Below, piece after piece: positions 10,552-18,472 of a stretch of DNA of 64,000 bases. Both the position numbers and the translations under genes were made by a program. Position 1 is the stretch's first letter; each line of letters begins with the position of its first letter. Origin of the DNA: an uncultured Paracoccaceae bacterium (GTDB lineage: Bacteria > Pseudomonadota > Alphaproteobacteria > Rhodobacterales > Rhodobacteraceae); assembly GCA_947495295.1 (NCBI GenBank), contig CANLYJ010000007.1, positions 54,989 through 118,988 on the forward strand, read 5' to 3'. The notes below the pieces were generated by a model. That model was given only the letters and a program-made list of their open reading frames with translations, searched no databases and was not told the origin of the DNA.

Positions 10552-11442
10552 TTGATTGGAGTGATTGCGTTGAGACGATTTGCCCGCCTTCCATCCCTCA
10601 TCGGCGCTTTGGCTGCATGTGCCTGTTTACTAGGCCCGCAAAGCGCCGTGGCCGAGGAAAAACCGATCTTTGATCAAGTGGTCGAGATTGTCGGGTCAGA
10701 GCGTGGTACCGTCCGTAAATGGATTTACGCACCCAAGGTGACTGTCATCCATGAGGGCGACCCACAACGCGATCAGATCAACAGCATTGTCGAAATGGTC
10801 AATGCCCGGATCCCCGACTTCCCGGGTGTTGGTGCCATCGAATTCTTTGATCTGTCCCAATATAATCGCCGCCTTGCAGGCAACACCCATTTCCGCATGC
10901 CTCGCGTCGAATTTGACGGGGTTGAAGGCAATATTGTCCGCGCCTTGTTCAAGGGCGAAGAAGAGGCGCAGAATATCGTGCTAACCGGCAGCATCTTCAT
11001 CTTTCTGACAGGTCTTGAGACGGGCATCACCCTTGGGGCACTGACGCAAAGCACCCAGTCGCTTAGCCGTCAGTTTGCCGAAGGTGCGCAGACGAAGTGT
11101 TATTTTCATCTGATGTCCAAGAATGACGAATTGCGCGCCGGGTTCATCTTTATCAACAACGAAGACGCGCATACGCCCATCGCTGAATGCCTATACGAGG
11201 AGTTCATGCAGACCCTTGGCCTGTTGAACGACTCGCGTGGGTCGTCGATCTTTACCTTTGACAATTCCGGCGACGTTCGTGCGGACCGCGCCCCTGATTT
11301 CCGCCTTTTGCAGGCGCTTTATGATCGTCAGGTCGCCGCTGGTGATGAGGCCGAAAAGGTCGCACAGCTTTATCTGGGGTTAGATGCCGCCTATCAACTT
11401 ACGGCTGCACCGTCAGATACTGCGGCGGCACCCGATCAGTAA
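10552..11442 (+). CDS. DUF2927 domain protein, secreted
   Basis: Signal-like N-terminus; HTPIAECLYEEFMQTLGLLNDSRGSSIFTFDNSGD resembles DUF2927. Confidence 0.7.
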   Translation: MIGVIALRRFARLPSLIGALAACACLLGPQSAVAEEKPIFDQVVEIVGSERGTVRKWIYAPKVTVIHEGDPQRDQINSIVEMVNARIPDFPGVGAIEFFDLSQYNRRLAGNTHFRMPRVEFDGVEGNIVRALFKGEEEAQNIVLTGSIFIFLTGLETGITLGALTQSTQSLSRQFAEGAQTKCYFHLMSKNDELRAGFIFINNEDAHTPIAECLYEEFMQTLGLLNDSRGSSIFTFDNSGDVRADRAPDFRLLQALYDRQVAAGDEAEKVAQLYLGLDAAYQLTAAPSDTAAAPDQ

Positions 11443-11932
11443 GCCAGACACCGTTATCCGCCTGAAAGAACGCAAAACCGGCCTGGGACATGGTATGCGC
11501 ATCAACCTGCAATACCACAGGCTTGCCATGGCGCATCCCGACCTTGGTTGCGGTTGAGACATCCAATGACAGATGCACCTGTTGTCTGCGTCCCGGTTTC
11601 AGACCCTCATTCATGATTGCAGCGACGGATTTTTGCGCTGTGCCGTGAAACAGAGTTGCGGGTGGGTCTGCTGGGCTGAGCCCGAGGGCAATATCGACGG
11701 AATGTCCTTGCGCCGCCCTGATCCGGGTCTTGTCGTTGGACAGGGTGAACCGTTTCTTGTCTGAGGTGACAACGATCTGTTCCAATGTGGCCCGGTCGAT
11801 TTTCTGCCCGGCTTTGGCGCAGCCTGCCAACAGGTCGTCCACAGCCACCCAGCCTTGCGAATCCAGTGTTAGCCCCGCCTTTTCCGGTGCGTGTCTTAGG
11901 ACGAGGCTTAAAAACTTGCTTTGCTGTTTCAT
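11399..11932 (-). CDS. kptA: RNA 2'-phosphotransferase (Tpt1/KptA)
   Basis: KFLSLVLRHAPEKAGLTLDSQGWVAVDDLL...LFHGTAQKSVAAIMNEGLKPGRRQQVHLS. Confidence 0.93.
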   Translation of the reverse strand: MKQQSKFLSLVLRHAPEKAGLTLDSQGWVAVDDLLAGCAKAGQKIDRATLEQIVVTSDKKRFTLSNDKTRIRAAQGHSVDIALGLSPADPPATLFHGTAQKSVAAIMNEGLKPGRRQQVHLSLDVSTATKVGMRHGKPVVLQVDAHTMSQAGFAFFQADNGVWLTDRVPPQYLTVQP

Positions 11933-11950: not shown

Positions 11951-13363
11951 TTAGCGCCGCCCCTTCCTTTTCTTTTTGTCCATCCAGAATGGTGGAATGT
12001 CACCTGCCATCATGCAGCCATACGGATCGATGTAGTCTTCAATCTCGGCGAGGTTGAACTGGCCGATCTGGCGCACCACATTGGCCGCGTTTTTGTAGGA
12101 TGATGGCAACTCGGACGCATCGATCCCACCGGCGGGGAACCGGATATCAAGCCCCTTTGTCTCGGCCTCAAGCGCCTGTTGGGCTGTCATCTCGCCCAGC
12201 CGCCGCTTGTGTTCAGAGCGCGAGAAGTTGCGCCCCGCCCCATGTGGCGAGAAACCCAAGGCATGCTCTGCATCTTTCCCACGCACGACCAAAACGGGTT
12301 CGGACATGTTCAGCGGGATCAGTGTCAGACCCGTCGCATCAGCGGCATAATCACCCCAGGCCGGGGTCGCCCCCTTGCCGTGGTAATACAGATCGCCACG
12401 CCGGAAGACGAAGTTATGTTCATTCCAGAACCGGTCGCCCGGCTGCGCCTTTGACCCTTCAACGGTCGCCTGATGGATCGCGTTATGGTTCGCCTTCGTC
12501 CATTTACGGATAAGTTGCAGCGCCGCCCAATAGTCCTGACCGTCCTGCGTATCCGCCGGGATCCACGCGTTTTGCTTGAGCGTGTCTGGCGACAGCTTTC
12601 TGCGATGTCTTTCGGCTGCTTCCATGCCCAGCTTGTAAAGCACCGCCCCCGGCCCGCGAGAGCCGTGATGGGTGACAATCGCCGTCCGCCCGGTATTGCG
12701 GGACTTGCCCACAAACAGGAAATGGTTGCCGTCCCCCTGGGTGCCCAGATGCTCGACCGCCATGCGCAAAATCTTGGGATTGTTGAGGAACTTGTTTTCC
12801 CGGAACGCATCCATCAGATTTTGCGACATGGTGAACCGCTTGCCATTGGGCCGCCCGCCGGGGCCGAAATGCGTGACCTGTTCGGCAGCGTCCAACACCG
12901 CCTTTGGATCAGTCTCGCCCATATCGGTCATCATGACCGAACAACAGATATCCGCCGAATGCATGCCGGGATGGATCGCATTGCGGGCCGCAACAACACC
13001 GCCCACAGGGATGGTCCCCAACGGACCCGCCGGACAGGCATCGGGCATCACGGCCGCCGACACAACTGTCGGTGTGCGAATAACAGCCTTCATCGTCTCG
13101 CGCACATCGGCAAGGTTCTTGATCTCATCAGGATCGTCCGAGGCTTCGATATTGAAATGAAACGGCACATCGCCCGCCTTTTGCAACGGCAAAGTTGGCG
13201 GCGGTGGGGGTGGCTTCATACCCTCCAGCTTGGCCTTGATCTGGTCCATCTCATAGCCCGCAGCGGCAGCCGCCTGTGCGATTTCGAGGGCACGGCCAAA
13301 TTCCTTGCCGGGGGTATGGCCCCATTCCTTAAGCGTTTCACCGGTGATTTCTACTTGTGTCAT
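11951..13363 (-). CDS. rtcB: RtcB-family RNA ligase
   Basis: HPGMHSADICCSVMMTDMG metal/Cys motif and FSPHGAGRNFSRSEHKRRL guanylylation-His motif. Confidence 0.95.
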   Translation of the reverse strand: MTQVEITGETLKEWGHTPGKEFGRALEIAQAAAAAGYEMDQIKAKLEGMKPPPPPPTLPLQKAGDVPFHFNIEASDDPDEIKNLADVRETMKAVIRTPTVVSAAVMPDACPAGPLGTIPVGGVVAARNAIHPGMHSADICCSVMMTDMGETDPKAVLDAAEQVTHFGPGGRPNGKRFTMSQNLMDAFRENKFLNNPKILRMAVEHLGTQGDGNHFLFVGKSRNTGRTAIVTHHGSRGPGAVLYKLGMEAAERHRRKLSPDTLKQNAWIPADTQDGQDYWAALQLIRKWTKANHNAIHQATVEGSKAQPGDRFWNEHNFVFRRGDLYYHGKGATPAWGDYAADATGLTLIPLNMSEPVLVVRGKDAEHALGFSPHGAGRNFSRSEHKRRLGEMTAQQALEAETKGLDIRFPAGGIDASELPSSYKNAANVVRQIGQFNLAEIEDYIDPYGCMMAGDIPPFWMDKKKRKGRR

Positions 13364-13810: not shown

Positions 13811-13942
13811 CCGGAACAAGGTGTTTGCAGGATAATTTTCCGCCACCGGATTTCTCCGGGCTGGGGTCGAACCAGCACGGGCCTTTTGGCCCCGGCCCCC
13901 AGAGGGCCTGCGTCTACCTGTAATCCTGACAGGCATTTCCAG
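13811..13942 (-). ncRNA. Y-RNA-like unit 8, with T-arm-like element and GAAA-capped hairpin
   Basis: Outer CTGGAA/TTCCGG, inner CAGGAT/ATCCTG, AATGC and TTGT motifs; interior GCTGG-TTCGACC-CCAGC followed by CCGGA-GAAA-TCCGG. Confidence 0.7.
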
Positions 13943-13950
13943 ATCATGGG

Positions 13951-14028
13951 TCCGGAGGACAAAGGTTTCGTGAGATGCCTTTCGGCGACCGTTTTAGAGC
14001 GATGTAATCCCACGGGCATTCCCCCGGA
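13951..14028 (-). ncRNA. Y-RNA-like unit 7 (minimal, no tRNA-like domain)
   Basis: Outer TCCGGGGGA/TCCTCCGGA, inner CGTGGGAT/ATCTCACG, AATGC and TTTGT motifs. Confidence 0.75.
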
Positions 14029-14176: not shown

Positions 14177-14252
14177 TGGCTGGAAGAGCAGGGTTCGAAC
14201 CTGCGACCTGCGGTACCAAAAACCGTTGCTCTACCAGCTGAGCTACCTTCCA
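14177..14252 (-). tRNA. tRNA-Gln(UUG)-like, canonical order, inside the Y-RNA-like array
   Basis: TGGAAGG-TA-GCTC-AGCTGGTA-GAGC-A-ACGGT-TTTTGGT-ACCGC-AGGTC-GCAGG-TTCGAAC-CCTGC-TCTTCCA-G-CCA; A27xC43 mismatch. Confidence 0.85.
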
Positions 14253-14255
14253 ATG

Positions 14256-14321
14256 GCGGAGGACAAGGGTTCAGTGAGACGCTGACACTTTGGAGATGTA
14301 GTCCCACAGGCATTCCTCCTG
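14256..14321 (-). ncRNA. Y-RNA-like unit 6 (minimal, no tRNA-like domain)
   Basis: Outer GGAGGA/TCCTCC, inner GTGGGAC/GTCTCAC, AATGC and TTGT motifs. Confidence 0.75.
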
Positions 14322-14331
14322 CTTGATTTGC

Positions 14332-14462
14332 CCCGGCGACAAGTATCTGGCGAAACGTTACGCGCTCTATCCATCTGAGCTATCCCGTCATGGTAACGGG
14401 AGTGGGATTCGAACCCACGACCTCGACATTCGTAGTGTAGTTCCACCAAGGCATTCGCCAGG
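14332..14462 (-). ncRNA. Y-RNA-like unit 5 with circularly permuted tRNA-like domain
   Basis: Outer CCTGGCGA/TCGCCGGG, inner GGTGGAAC/GTTTCGCC; interior T-arm GTGGG-TTCGAAT-CCCAC, then TCCCGTT-ACCA-T-GACGGGA acceptor, then D-arm GCTCAGATGGATAGAGC. Confidence 0.85.
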
Positions 14463-14475
14463 GCTGTTATTCGGG

Positions 14476-14595
14476 TCCGGCAACAAAGTGGGGCGAAACA
14501 TGTATACTGCTCTACCAACTGAGCTACCCGGTGAAGTGACCTCCGGGGCGGGGCTCGAACCCGCGACCAATGTAGTTCCACCAGCATTTGCCGGA
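14476..14595 (-). ncRNA. Y-RNA-like unit 4 with circularly permuted tRNA-like domain
   Basis: Outer TCCGGCAA/TTGCCGGA (8/8), inner GGTGGAAC/GTTTCGCC; T-arm GCGGG-TTCGAGC-CCCGC, acceptor-like CCCGG...CCGGG, D-arm GCTCAGTTGGTAGAGC. Confidence 0.85.
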
Positions 14596-14604
14596 ATGTT
14601 CGGG

Positions 14605-14751
14605 TCTGGCGACAAAGGGAAAGAAACGTTTTGGGGCCCCGCCCCCATTTCCGCAGAAATGGTTTTCCGTCTGGGCGTCTTCGCTAGAGGGGAGTTGAAC
14701 CCTCGGGTGATCCCGGTTTGGTGCGATGTAGTTCCTTTGGCATTCGCCAGA
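14605..14751 (-). ncRNA. Y-RNA-like unit 3 with degenerate T-arm-like element
   Basis: Outer TCTGGCGA/TCGCCAGA (8/8), inner AAAGGAAC/GTTTCTTT; interior GAGGG-TTCAACT-CCCCTC, no D-arm recognised. Confidence 0.75.
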
Positions 14752-14760
14752 ATATCTGGT

Positions 14761-14898
14761 CTTGGCAACAAGGTTTTGATGAAACATTGGGGAGGTGCTC
14801 TTCCAACTGAGCTACATCGCTCCGGTTGTCCCGGCTGTGATGGCGGGGTTCGAACCCGCGACATCATCCGTGATGTAGTTCCACCGGCATTTGCCAAG
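14761..14898 (-). ncRNA. Y-RNA-like unit 2 with circularly permuted tRNA-like domain
   Basis: Outer CTTGGCAA/TTGCCAAG (8/8), inner GGTGGAAC/GTTTCATC; T-arm GCGGG-TTCGAAC-CCCGC, CATC...CCGG-gacaa-CCGG...GATG closed acceptor, D-arm GCTCAGTTGGAAGAGC. Confidence 0.85.
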
Positions 14899-14914
14899 GT
14901 GTTTGTTTGTCGGT

Positions 14915-15010
14915 CCCGGCGACAATCGGGGGTGAAACATCAACATGCGCGTATTCTGCCAGCAAAACCGCCATCACGTTCCCTATGTAGTTCCACCAGC
15001 ATTCGCCGGG
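14915..15010 (-). ncRNA. Y-RNA-like unit 1 (no clear tRNA-like domain)
   Basis: Outer CCCGGCGA/TCGCCGGG (8/8), inner GGTGGAAC/GTTTCACC (8/8), AATGC and TTGT motifs. Confidence 0.8.
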
Positions 15011-15148: not shown

Positions 15149-16705
15149 TTAAATGTCGGTTGCCTCGATTTGGCCGACCCAGTGATCTGGTCCCATCTCG
15201 CCTGCCGCGAAGGCTGCGATCTGGTCAAAGACCGTGTCCGAGAACCCGCCAATGTTCAGAACATCGTCGCGTTCTTTCGCCTGGGTCGTCCCGTATGGGG
15301 CGATGTCGATGCAGACCAGTTTGGCCTTTGGGTTCCGCCTTTTCAGCTTCTCCCACGCTTGCATCATAACCGTCCCGGCGTTGCCGTACTGGTTATGCGC
15401 CCAGGACTGGTTGTCCGAGACGATGATCACCAGATCCGGGGCACGCCCCTTGGCCAGCAACCAATCCAGCGGTGCCGCGCAATTGGTCCCGCCGCCCCAC
15501 TGATCCGCCAAACGTGCTGCGTTTGTCAGGATCGTGTCGCGTGGTTCCAGCCGCACATCGCGCACCTTCACCTCGAACGGCAGGACCGTCGCGGATGGGT
15601 TACGCCGCAGCACAGCCGCAGAGACAAGCCCCGCCACATCCACGAACCGCGTCGCTGTGGTGGCCCCCTTACGGTAGCCTGTTACAGCGCCGGACATGGA
15701 CCCGGATACATCCGGGGCAACCACAACCTGACCGCGCAGCTTTGGCACGTTGCGCACCGAAAGCTCCATCGCGTCATGCAATGCGTCCCTGATCTCGGCC
15801 GGCATGTCCGAAGACATGGCCTGATAGGCCGTCATCAGCTGATACGGGAACACCCGTGCCTTTGCGATCAGCGCCGGATCACGCAAACGATCCGCAATCA
15901 TGCACCGCATTTTCGGCAGGGCCAGAACCCCGTGCCGCAGGAACGTGTTCAGGTTCATACGGGTCATCTGCCAAGATGCGTTCTCAGCAATCTTTGCCCA
16001 CTGTTTCGTAGACAATTCAAGCTGCGTCAGCATCTGGAACGGAACGTTTGGCACGCGGCCACGGCCCGTTTTCTTGAACCGCAGGAAATCCTGCACATTA
16101 TCCGGCAGCAATGCGACGTCACATGGCTTCCTGATGATCCACGCAAACAGCGCGTCTCGCGCCTTCGAGGAAGGCTTCGGGTGGACCATCTTGATCACAT
16201 CCGCCAGCGACGGGTCGTTACCCACATTCGCCTGCAGGATCGCCCGGTCGGACGCCTCATTCAGCCAATTGGCAACCAGCCGCTTTGGCGCAGAGCCAAG
16301 CGATTTCCGCCCCGTCTGCCCCGACCGCATGATCTGCACAAAGGTGCGCAGCATCTTGCCGTTATCCACAACACGCCCAACGACGCGCTGGAACAGGATC
16401 GGGTCACGGGCCGACAGAACCGCCAGCAACAGGGCGGGCATATCTTTCATATGGCCCTCTTGCCGGGTGTAGACCGCCGCCTTTGCAAGAAAGGACGGAT
16501 CAACCTTTTGCGCCAATTCCAGCGTGCGGGACAGTTCCTGCATCGGGTCCTGGTAGAATGTCTGCCCAAACGTGCCGGTCATCGCCAGCTGCGCCAAGGC
16601 ATGCGCATCGGAATAGGTATAGGCCGGTGCCCCCGCCAGATTCGTAGCAGAAGCTGCCGGAAGCAACCGGCCTTTCATCGATGCAAACACAGATTTGTTT
16701 GCCAT
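15149..16705 (-). CDS. rsr: TROVE/Ro60-family RNA-binding protein with vWA domain (Rsr)
   Basis: LLLAVLSARDPILFQRVVGRVVDNGKMLRTFVQIMRSGQTGRKSLGSAPKRLVANWL TROVE repeats; VVVAPDVSGSMSG MIDAS motif in the C-terminal part. Confidence 0.93.
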   Translation of the reverse strand: MANKSVFASMKGRLLPAASATNLAGAPAYTYSDAHALAQLAMTGTFGQTFYQDPMQELSRTLELAQKVDPSFLAKAAVYTRQEGHMKDMPALLLAVLSARDPILFQRVVGRVVDNGKMLRTFVQIMRSGQTGRKSLGSAPKRLVANWLNEASDRAILQANVGNDPSLADVIKMVHPKPSSKARDALFAWIIRKPCDVALLPDNVQDFLRFKKTGRGRVPNVPFQMLTQLELSTKQWAKIAENASWQMTRMNLNTFLRHGVLALPKMRCMIADRLRDPALIAKARVFPYQLMTAYQAMSSDMPAEIRDALHDAMELSVRNVPKLRGQVVVAPDVSGSMSGAVTGYRKGATTATRFVDVAGLVSAAVLRRNPSATVLPFEVKVRDVRLEPRDTILTNAARLADQWGGGTNCAAPLDWLLAKGRAPDLVIIVSDNQSWAHNQYGNAGTVMMQAWEKLKRRNPKAKLVCIDIAPYGTTQAKERDDVLNIGGFSDTVFDQIAAFAAGEMGPDHWVGQIEATDI

Positions 16706-16850
16706 TTCACTCTCGTCCTTCTTCGTTTCAGTGATGCTGTTTTCGTGGATTTTGAGGGTTGGACGAAGAAAAATCGCATTCGCTTTAAGTCGCTGTTTTT
16801 ATTAGAGTATTTTTGGCAAAACGATAATGACTACAGAATTTACGATTTAC

Positions 16851-16882: not shown

Positions 16883-18472
16883 ATGAAGAAGAATGTTGTC
16901 ATCGGCTTTCTGGGGACGAATCTGGACGCGGGCAAGCGCCGCCGCTGGCGTCCCTCTGTGCAGATCAATGATCATCCTGATTTTCCTATTACGCGACTGG
17001 AATTGCTGCATGATCGGCGCTGGACGGGGCTTGCCACGAAAATCAAAGGCGAGGTTGAACGCGCCCATCCCGAAACCGAGGTCCTGCTGCACGAGGTCAA
17101 CGTCCACGACCCGTGGGATTTTGAGGAGATGTATGGCGCGATGTTCGATTTCGCCCGTGATTATGGTTTTGATGATGAGCGGGAGGAATACCACGTTCAT
17201 CTGACCACCGGCACACATGTTGCGCAAATCTGCTGGTTCCTGCTAACCGAGGCGCGCCATATCCCGGCCAAACTGGTTCAGACCGGCCCGCCGCGCGGTG
17301 AGGATACCGGCCCCGGCACCTTGCAGATCGTTGATCTTGATCTGTCGCGCTACAATGCCCTGCAACAACGGTTTGATCTGGTTTCCAAGGAATATAACGC
17401 CCTGTTGAAGGGCGGGATCGACACCAAGAACGCAGCCTTTAACGCGATGATTGACCGGATGGAGGTCGTGACCTCCAATTCAGACGCGCCGCTGTTGTTG
17501 ATAGGGCCGACCGGGACGGGGAAATCGGATCTTGCCGCGCGCTTGTATGAATTGAAGCTGCAACGCCGTCGCATCAAGGGCCGTTTGGTCCATGTGAATT
17601 GTTCGACGCTGAAGGGCGAGCGGGCCATGTCGACCCTATTTGGCCACCGCAGACAATCTATCCGTGGCGCAGGGTCCGACCGGCGCGGCCTGCTGCAAGA
17701 GGCTGATGGCGGTGTCCTGTTTCTGGACGAGATTGACGAGCTGGGTCTGGATGAACAGGCGATGATCCTGCACGCGGTTGAGACGGGCAAATACCTGCCA
17801 CTTGGGTCGGATTACGAGGTGACCAGCCGGTTTCATCTGATCGCGGGGGCGGGGCGTGATCTGGCGGCTTTGGTGGCCAAGGGCCAGTTTCGCGCCGACC
17901 TGTTTGCCCGGCTGAACCTATGGACATTCCACCTACCCGCTTTGCGTGACCGACCCGAGGATATCGACCCGAATATCGCCTATGAACTGGCACGGGTAGA
18001 AAAACTGTTGGGGCAACGGCTCAGCTTTAATGCCGATGCATTCACCCGCTATCAACGTTTTGCCACAGATCCGGGCACTGATTGGTCAGGCAATTTTCGT
18101 GACCTGTCCGCATCTGTCCAACGCATGTGTACCCTTGCCCCGCGGGGACGGATTACATTGGCTATGGTCGAGGATGAAATTGCCACGTTGCGCAGCACAT
18201 GGCGCGACGCGACCCGCGACCCGGATTTGCAGCTATTGCAGGCGCATCTGGGTGCGGCTGCACAGGACATCGACATCTTTGATCGGGTCCAATTGGCCGC
18301 TGTTATTCGGATTTGCCAGAAAAGCGCGAGCCTGAGCGCTGCGGGTCGGACGTTATTCGCGGCTTCGCGCGCGGCCAGGGCCAGCCGGAACGATGCCGAC
18401 CGGCTGCGCAAGTATCTGGATAAATTCGGTCTTGATTGGGCGCAATGTCAGGCAGATGCCGCTTCAGGGTAG
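16883..18472 (+). CDS. rtcR: RtcR-type CARF + AAA+ transcriptional regulator
   Basis: VVIGFLGTNLDAGKRRRWRPSVQINDHPDFPITRLELLHD (RtcR N-terminal domain), GPTGTGKSDLA Walker A, GGVLFLDEIDELG Walker B; ATG at 16871 also possible. Confidence 0.93.
   Translation: MKKNVVIGFLGTNLDAGKRRRWRPSVQINDHPDFPITRLELLHDRRWTGLATKIKGEVERAHPETEVLLHEVNVHDPWDFEEMYGAMFDFARDYGFDDEREEYHVHLTTGTHVAQICWFLLTEARHIPAKLVQTGPPRGEDTGPGTLQIVDLDLSRYNALQQRFDLVSKEYNALLKGGIDTKNAAFNAMIDRMEVVTSNSDAPLLLIGPTGTGKSDLAARLYELKLQRRRIKGRLVHVNCSTLKGERAMSTLFGHRRQSIRGAGSDRRGLLQEADGGVLFLDEIDELGLDEQAMILHAVETGKYLPLGSDYEVTSRFHLIAGAGRDLAALVAKGQFRADLFARLNLWTFHLPALRDRPEDIDPNIAYELARVEKLLGQRLSFNADAFTRYQRFATDPGTDWSGNFRDLSASVQRMCTLAPRGRITLAMVEDEIATLRSTWRDATRDPDLQLLQAHLGAAAQDIDIFDRVQLAAVIRICQKSASLSAAGRTLFAASRAARASRNDADRLRKYLDKFGLDWAQCQADAASG

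Follow-up and report, generated by a model that had tools for sequence, protein, structure and literature searches.

The RtcR protein encoded in the window (the whole stretch of 64,000 nucleotides analyzed here, from an uncultured Paracoccaceae bacterium) is almost certainly independent of sigma54. It failed three tests of a sigma54-dependent activator: 1) the GAFTGA motif, 2) sigma54 in the genome and 3) a -24/-12 promoter. The tests of the AAA+ domain, that is Walker A and B, the arginine fingers and sensor II, were all met. Since the enhancer site and the ATP-binding engine have been kept, RtcR probably switches genes on from afar with a different RNA polymerase. We consider it fairly likely that this ATP-binding enhancer protein controls the rsr-Y RNA-rtcB operon through a polymerase devoid of sigma54, although the direction of regulation (activation) and the sigma partner are inferred. 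An earlier note on this DNA had suggested that this RtcR may activate or repress without sigma54, and the lack of a sigma54 gene and of a -24/-12 promoter, the loss of the loop across a whole clade and the conservation of the rest of the protein all support the suggestion.

The standard example of obligate enhancer control in bacteria is the sigma54 activator. In RtcR, one orthologue provides a natural series with and without GAFTGA, the sensor I Thr and the -24/-12 promoter, while the layout of enhancer and IHF site stays constant. The rewiring of an AAA+ enhancer protein to another polymerase, and the order of the cis and trans changes, thereby become testable. For annotation, RtcR of Rhodobacteraceae should not be called sigma54-dependent, and regulon predictions based on sigma54 miss the rsr-Y RNA-rtcB operon.

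The rtcR gene and its altered loop

The product of rtcR was identified as a frameshift-free RtcR because the Pfam models RtcR (PF06956; 240.8 bits, 8.8e-72, cut-off 23.1) and Sigma54_activat (PF00158; 132 bits, 2e-38) each match over almost the whole domain length. GAFTGA is replaced by QSIRGA, as the earlier note had read it; the replacement is in frame, and both Walker motifs are intact (Table 1). A further genome from the genus (L011) shows this loop too, which excludes a sequencing error. In the predicted structure the bEBP AAA+ fold is intact (mean pLDDT 84) and lies ~2.2 A from the FleQ and NtrC1 domains; within the AAA+ domain, the confidence of the model is lowest around the loop. A pseudogene, a frameshift or an assembly error was ruled out by the open frame, the second genome and the dN/dS values given below.

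Table 1. Features of the rtcR locus (positions in the window).
Feature	Position	Strand	Remarks
rtcR	16883-18472	+	529 aa, open frame; CARF and AAA+ (Sigma54_activat) domains by Pfam, then C-terminal HTH
Walker A, GPTGTGKS	17504-17527	+	intact; K in 56/56 of the clade
L1 loop region, LFGHRRQSIRGAGSDRRGLL	17636-17695	+	aa 252-271
GAFTGA position, QSIRGA	17654-17671	+	aa 258-263, in frame
Walker B, VLFLDEIDELG	17714-17746	+	DE intact
Sensor I position, Ala323	17849-17851	+	aligns with Thr of ATN in NtrC1
Arginine-finger region, FRADLFARLN	17888-17917	+	both Arg present
C-terminal HTH region	18338-18418	+	conservation equal to that of GAFTGA-containing RtcRs
UAS palindrome, TTATCCGTATGGATAA	16863-16878	.	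12/12 match to TTATCC-N4-GGATAA
IHF-type site, consensus WATCAANNNNTTR (rsr strand)	16785-16798	-	from sequence only
New element, part 1, TTTTCTTC (rsr strand)	16765-16772	-	fixed distance from IHF-type site
New element, part 2, CGAAAACA	16738-16745	-	clade consensus GNCAAAAC
rsr (Ro60-like, vWA/TROVE)	15149-16705	-	divergent from rtcR
Tandem YrlA-like Y RNA array	14177-15009	-	3' of rsr, between rsr and rtcB
rtcB-like RNA ligase	11951-13363	-	named by sequence and by its constant position in rtcR loci, without a family search
Presumed KptA-like RNA 2'-phosphotransferase	11399-11932	-	from translation

A single clade of RtcRs without GAFTGA

Genomes were sampled at three taxonomic levels, and RtcR turned up in 12 of 385 for the class, 35 of 390 for the order and 28 of 398 for the phylum; 80 named rtcR loci were added (Tateyamaria, Ruegeria, Leisingera, Sulfitobacter, Paracoccus, Roseibium and others). 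A number of genomes entered the set twice, by different routes, leaving a few duplicates in the counts of 74 GAFTGA-containing and 56 GAFTGA-less loci. The motif was absent from every Rhodobacteraceae RtcR sampled so far, the loop being spelled there in many ways (QAIPGA, SYLGQA, SHTGQP, GAMGTQ and SAGAGA among them), and was retained in RtcRs outside the clade that contains this family. A tree built without the loop columns (37 rows) placed the GAFTGA-less RtcRs in one clade (support 100/99). This clade was recovered again under wider sampling (SH-aLRT 99). Roseibium and strain BW5 then joined it, as did two MAGs of the Hyphomicrobiales; two small alphaproteobacterial orders are also represented. 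The clade adjoins the GAFTGA-containing RtcRs in these trees, which were unrooted, restricted to RtcR and without an outgroup of other proteins.

Alignment of RtcR homologues at the loop, which the earlier note had proposed as a check, revealed a clade-wide loss of GAFTGA in an otherwise conserved protein. The difference is more than chance: the Thr of GAFTGA is present in all GAFTGA-containing RtcRs (74/74) and in none of the clade (0/56), the six residues of the motif show the greatest loss of constraint from one clade to the other among 524 such segments, and the mean entropy of the AAA+ domain is equal in both groups (0.87 vs 0.88). Apart from the loop, rtcR is under strong purifying selection (dN/dS of 0.035-0.088 against relatives in the genus and family). 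Such values speak against RtcR and its promoter being non-functional and in decay, a very improbable reading to which the freely evolving loop and the complete absence of rtcR from several relatives of the genus lend some color, but which is also contradicted by the conserved ATPase and HTH residues, the conserved intergenic elements and the intact rsr and rtcB genes.

The 56 RtcRs of the clade all have the Walker A Lys, the Walker B Asp, the first arginine finger and the sensor II Arg, and 54 keep the second arginine finger. Two other positions set the clade apart. At sensor I, 73/74 GAFTGA-containing RtcRs have Thr and 52/56 clade members have Ala; the Gly that follows Walker B has become Asp in 55 of the 56. 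The sensor I Thr of PspF is reported to couple hydrolysis to remodelling of the sigma54-RNA polymerase, to judge from the title of Schumacher 2007 as given in PMC2745333. The Walker B Glu is replaced by Asp (LFLDD) in twelve of the 56 (L019, L026-L029, L036, L095-L098, L101 and L102). Active ATP hydrolysis is for this reason doubtful in part of the clade, the substitution suggesting that hydrolysis may be slow or absent. By analogy with NtrC of R. capsulatus, we infer that ATP binding, more than hydrolysis, may drive these proteins.

One RtcR placed inside the clade (L088:4001-5560) carries GAFSGA, and sigma54 is present in its genome; the promoter scan described below found no strong -24/-12 sequence at this locus. 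It is a possible intermediate.

Sigma54 in the genomes and the order of events

The domain models PF04552 and PF00309, both of which detect the sigma54 controls of E. coli, B. subtilis and Caulobacter, identified no sigma54 gene in the 4.27-Mb genome of the window (G000), whose completeness is given as 100%. This genome encodes five more NtrC-type proteins (loci L070, L071, L073, L074 and L076, on contigs C1 and C2), whose sequences identify them as NtrC, NtrX and three DctD-like response regulators. All five lack GAFTGA, and in some the loop is wholly deleted. Therefore, no sigma54-dependent transcription is expected in this genome. An RpoN-dependent -24/-12 promoter of rsr, which the earlier note had named as the result that would refute it, cannot exist there without sigma54. 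That RtcR still uses sigma54 through its altered loop might be argued from the sigma54 genes of some clade genomes and from GAFSGA in L088, but with no sigma54 in the genome of the window and no strong -24/-12 promoter in the 56 clade loci or L088, we give it next to no credence. For the genome of the window it is already refuted, unless the assembly misses rpoN.

Full-strength sigma54 (223-237 bits) was detected in the clade genomes behind L001 (G341), L005 (G091), L086 (Roseibium), L087 (BW5), L088 and L101. These loci have no -24/-12 promoter, and the loop is missing from all except L088. The switch is thus not simply a by-product of sigma54 loss. The departure of the RtcR locus from sigma54 seems to predate the loss of sigma54 itself or to be unconnected with it, although a transfer of rtcR into sigma54-bearing genomes would weaken this ordering. 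To judge from their sequences, the diverse loops may have arisen by repeated decay once the promoter had switched. Some sigma54 is found in about 30% of the sampled Rhodobacteraceae. Its frequency is 5/35 in genomes with RtcR and about 60/198 in the family sample (p = 0.065), a difference too weak to link rtcR firmly to the absence of sigma54 within this family. The broader proposal is that the clade kept a looped enhancer (palindrome, IHF bend and AAA+ ring) in working order and swapped the sigma54 promoter and the sigma54-contact loop for a new type of promoter and a polymerase without sigma54 before most hosts lost sigma54, which would represent long-range ATP-dependent activation outside sigma54; in our judgment it could go either way.

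The divergent promoter region

A -24/-12 promoter of the divergent operon (score of at least 0.84) was located in 69 of the 74 GAFTGA-containing rtcR loci vs none of the 56 GAFTGA-less ones. Where GAFTGA is present, the promoter lies mostly 140-187 nt from the rtcR start. A scan of the intergenic gap found none between rsr and rtcR in the window. The palindrome TTATCC-N4-GGATAA is common to both groups of loci, typically 18-20 nt before rtcR. In the window it lies 20 nt before the ATG, and this sequence occurs as a single exact copy in the genome. An IHF-type site (score of at least 11/13) was found in 62% of the GAFTGA-containing and 88% of the GAFTGA-less loci, compared with 15-16% of shuffled sequences.

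As the palindrome lies in the rtcR leader, autorepression is also possible. A GAFTGA-less RtcR could now be a repressor of rtcR, of the operon or of both, bound to the palindrome and released by an RNA-damage ligand, in the manner of TyrR-type relatives at sigma70 promoters. The closeness of the palindrome to the rtcR ATG, the disappearance of the known activating contact with GAFTGA and the sigma70 dependence of the GAFTGA-defective TyrR, DhaR and HupR (PMC3162934) are compatible with repression. However, the palindrome occupies the same place in activators with GAFTGA, and neither the IHF-type site nor its constant distance from the new element, both kept and even stronger in the clade, would be needed for repression at the leader. 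We regard repression alone as unlikely, and activation from the palindrome remains the preferred reading.

In GAFTGA-containing loci the -24/-12 sequence usually starts 39-42 nt past the point where the IHF site begins. In the GAFTGA-less clade the same interval, free of indels, carries a T-tract (TTTTYYTC) followed by GNCAAAAC (GNCAAAA), the second part of this new element occupying the place of the -24/-12 promoter. A T, a T and an A of the element are invariant across 22 loci under 75% identity. Both halves were found at fixed coordinates in 20/42 GAFTGA-less and 0/68 GAFTGA-containing loci (0.02 in shuffles). We infer from these alignments that the element is a putative replacement promoter. 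Scanning the gap for sigma70 promoters yielded a single match, at chance level and around the start of rtcR; we therefore claim no -35/-10 for the rsr-rtcR gap.

The mechanism that we favor would run as follows. The CARF domain would still recognize RNA damage, and RtcR would bind ATP, assemble and occupy the palindromic enhancer beside rtcR. IHF would still bend the DNA between enhancer and promoter. The rsr-Y RNA-rtcB promoter would now depend on an RNA polymerase without sigma54, most likely of the primary sigma70 type, which RtcR would contact without the GAFTGA loop. Activation, the promoter role of the new element and IHF binding at the IHF-type site are inferred, and the explanation is limited by the lack of expression data and by an element unlike the textbook sigma70 -35/-10. 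This same unlikeness to TTGACA/TATAAT, in what is a stress operon, leaves some room for a variant in which the partner of RtcR is an alternative sigma factor, RpoH- or ECF-type, and not the housekeeping one; but the element matches neither the RpoH nor the EcfG consensus, and sigma70 is used by NtrC of R. capsulatus (PMC10274813). We hold this variant to be possible but doubtful.

Comparison with known regulators

By its domains and gene context the protein of the window is an RtcR; in working principle, its closest counterpart is NtrC of R. capsulatus, which depends on sigma70. This NtrC is reported to activate through sigma70 (PMC10274813, citing Bowman and Kranz 1998), as the earlier note had stated of Rhodobacter NtrC without GAFTGA; ATP binding, and not hydrolysis, is reported in the same paper as essential. 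Both are NtrC-type AAA+ proteins without GAFTGA, from the same order, that keep the ATP site and an enhancer-type site. By this analogy, the pattern of the clade, with ATP binding kept and coupling parts lost, appears to fit R. capsulatus NtrC. However, the L1 loop is deleted in NtrC whereas in the clade its length is mostly kept and its letters are changed. RtcR, unlike NtrC, has a CARF sensor, and its loci keep the IHF-type site and show a matching promoter replacement across the clade.

The use of a UAS and an IHF site has been described for E. coli RtcR (PMC9650030). The CARF-AAA+-HTH architecture, the divergence from the rsr/rtcB operon, the UAS and the IHF site are shared with RtcR of E. 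coli and Salmonella. Enterobacterial RtcRs, of which Citrobacter L158 is an example, differ from the clade in having GAFTGA, a Thr at sensor I and a -24/-12 promoter, and they need sigma54. TyrR, DhaR, HupR and VpsR differ from RtcR in sensor domains and regulons. We know of no report that any of these four keeps the sigma54-type layout of enhancer and IHF site. They are GAFTGA-defective and sigma70-dependent where tested (PMC3162934, PMC10274813). An earlier survey listed GAFTGA-defective relatives with presumed sigma70 use, one Jannaschia protein included (PMC3162934). No description of a sigma54-free RtcR was found in the literature searched, which leaves out most subscription journals.

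The RNA-repair operon

The rsr gene is presumed to be the first of the RtcR-controlled operon, and rsr and rtcB are divergent from rtcR wherever they are found among rtcR loci. The product encoded next to rtcB we take, from its translation, to be KptA-like. CCTC ... GAGG pairs occur just upstream of rsr in the leaders of L024, L028, L096 and L107, among others; their pairing would enclose the Shine-Dalgarno sequence in a small hairpin. The Y RNA array comprises at least five units, matching Rfam RF02553 at 84, 67, 56, 38 and 25 bits, of which the first alone exceeds the gathering score. Further unscored YrlA-like units are possible near 14596-14750 and 13860-14010. The tRNA-like domain of one unit was good enough to be called tRNA-Gln(TTG) by ARAGORN.
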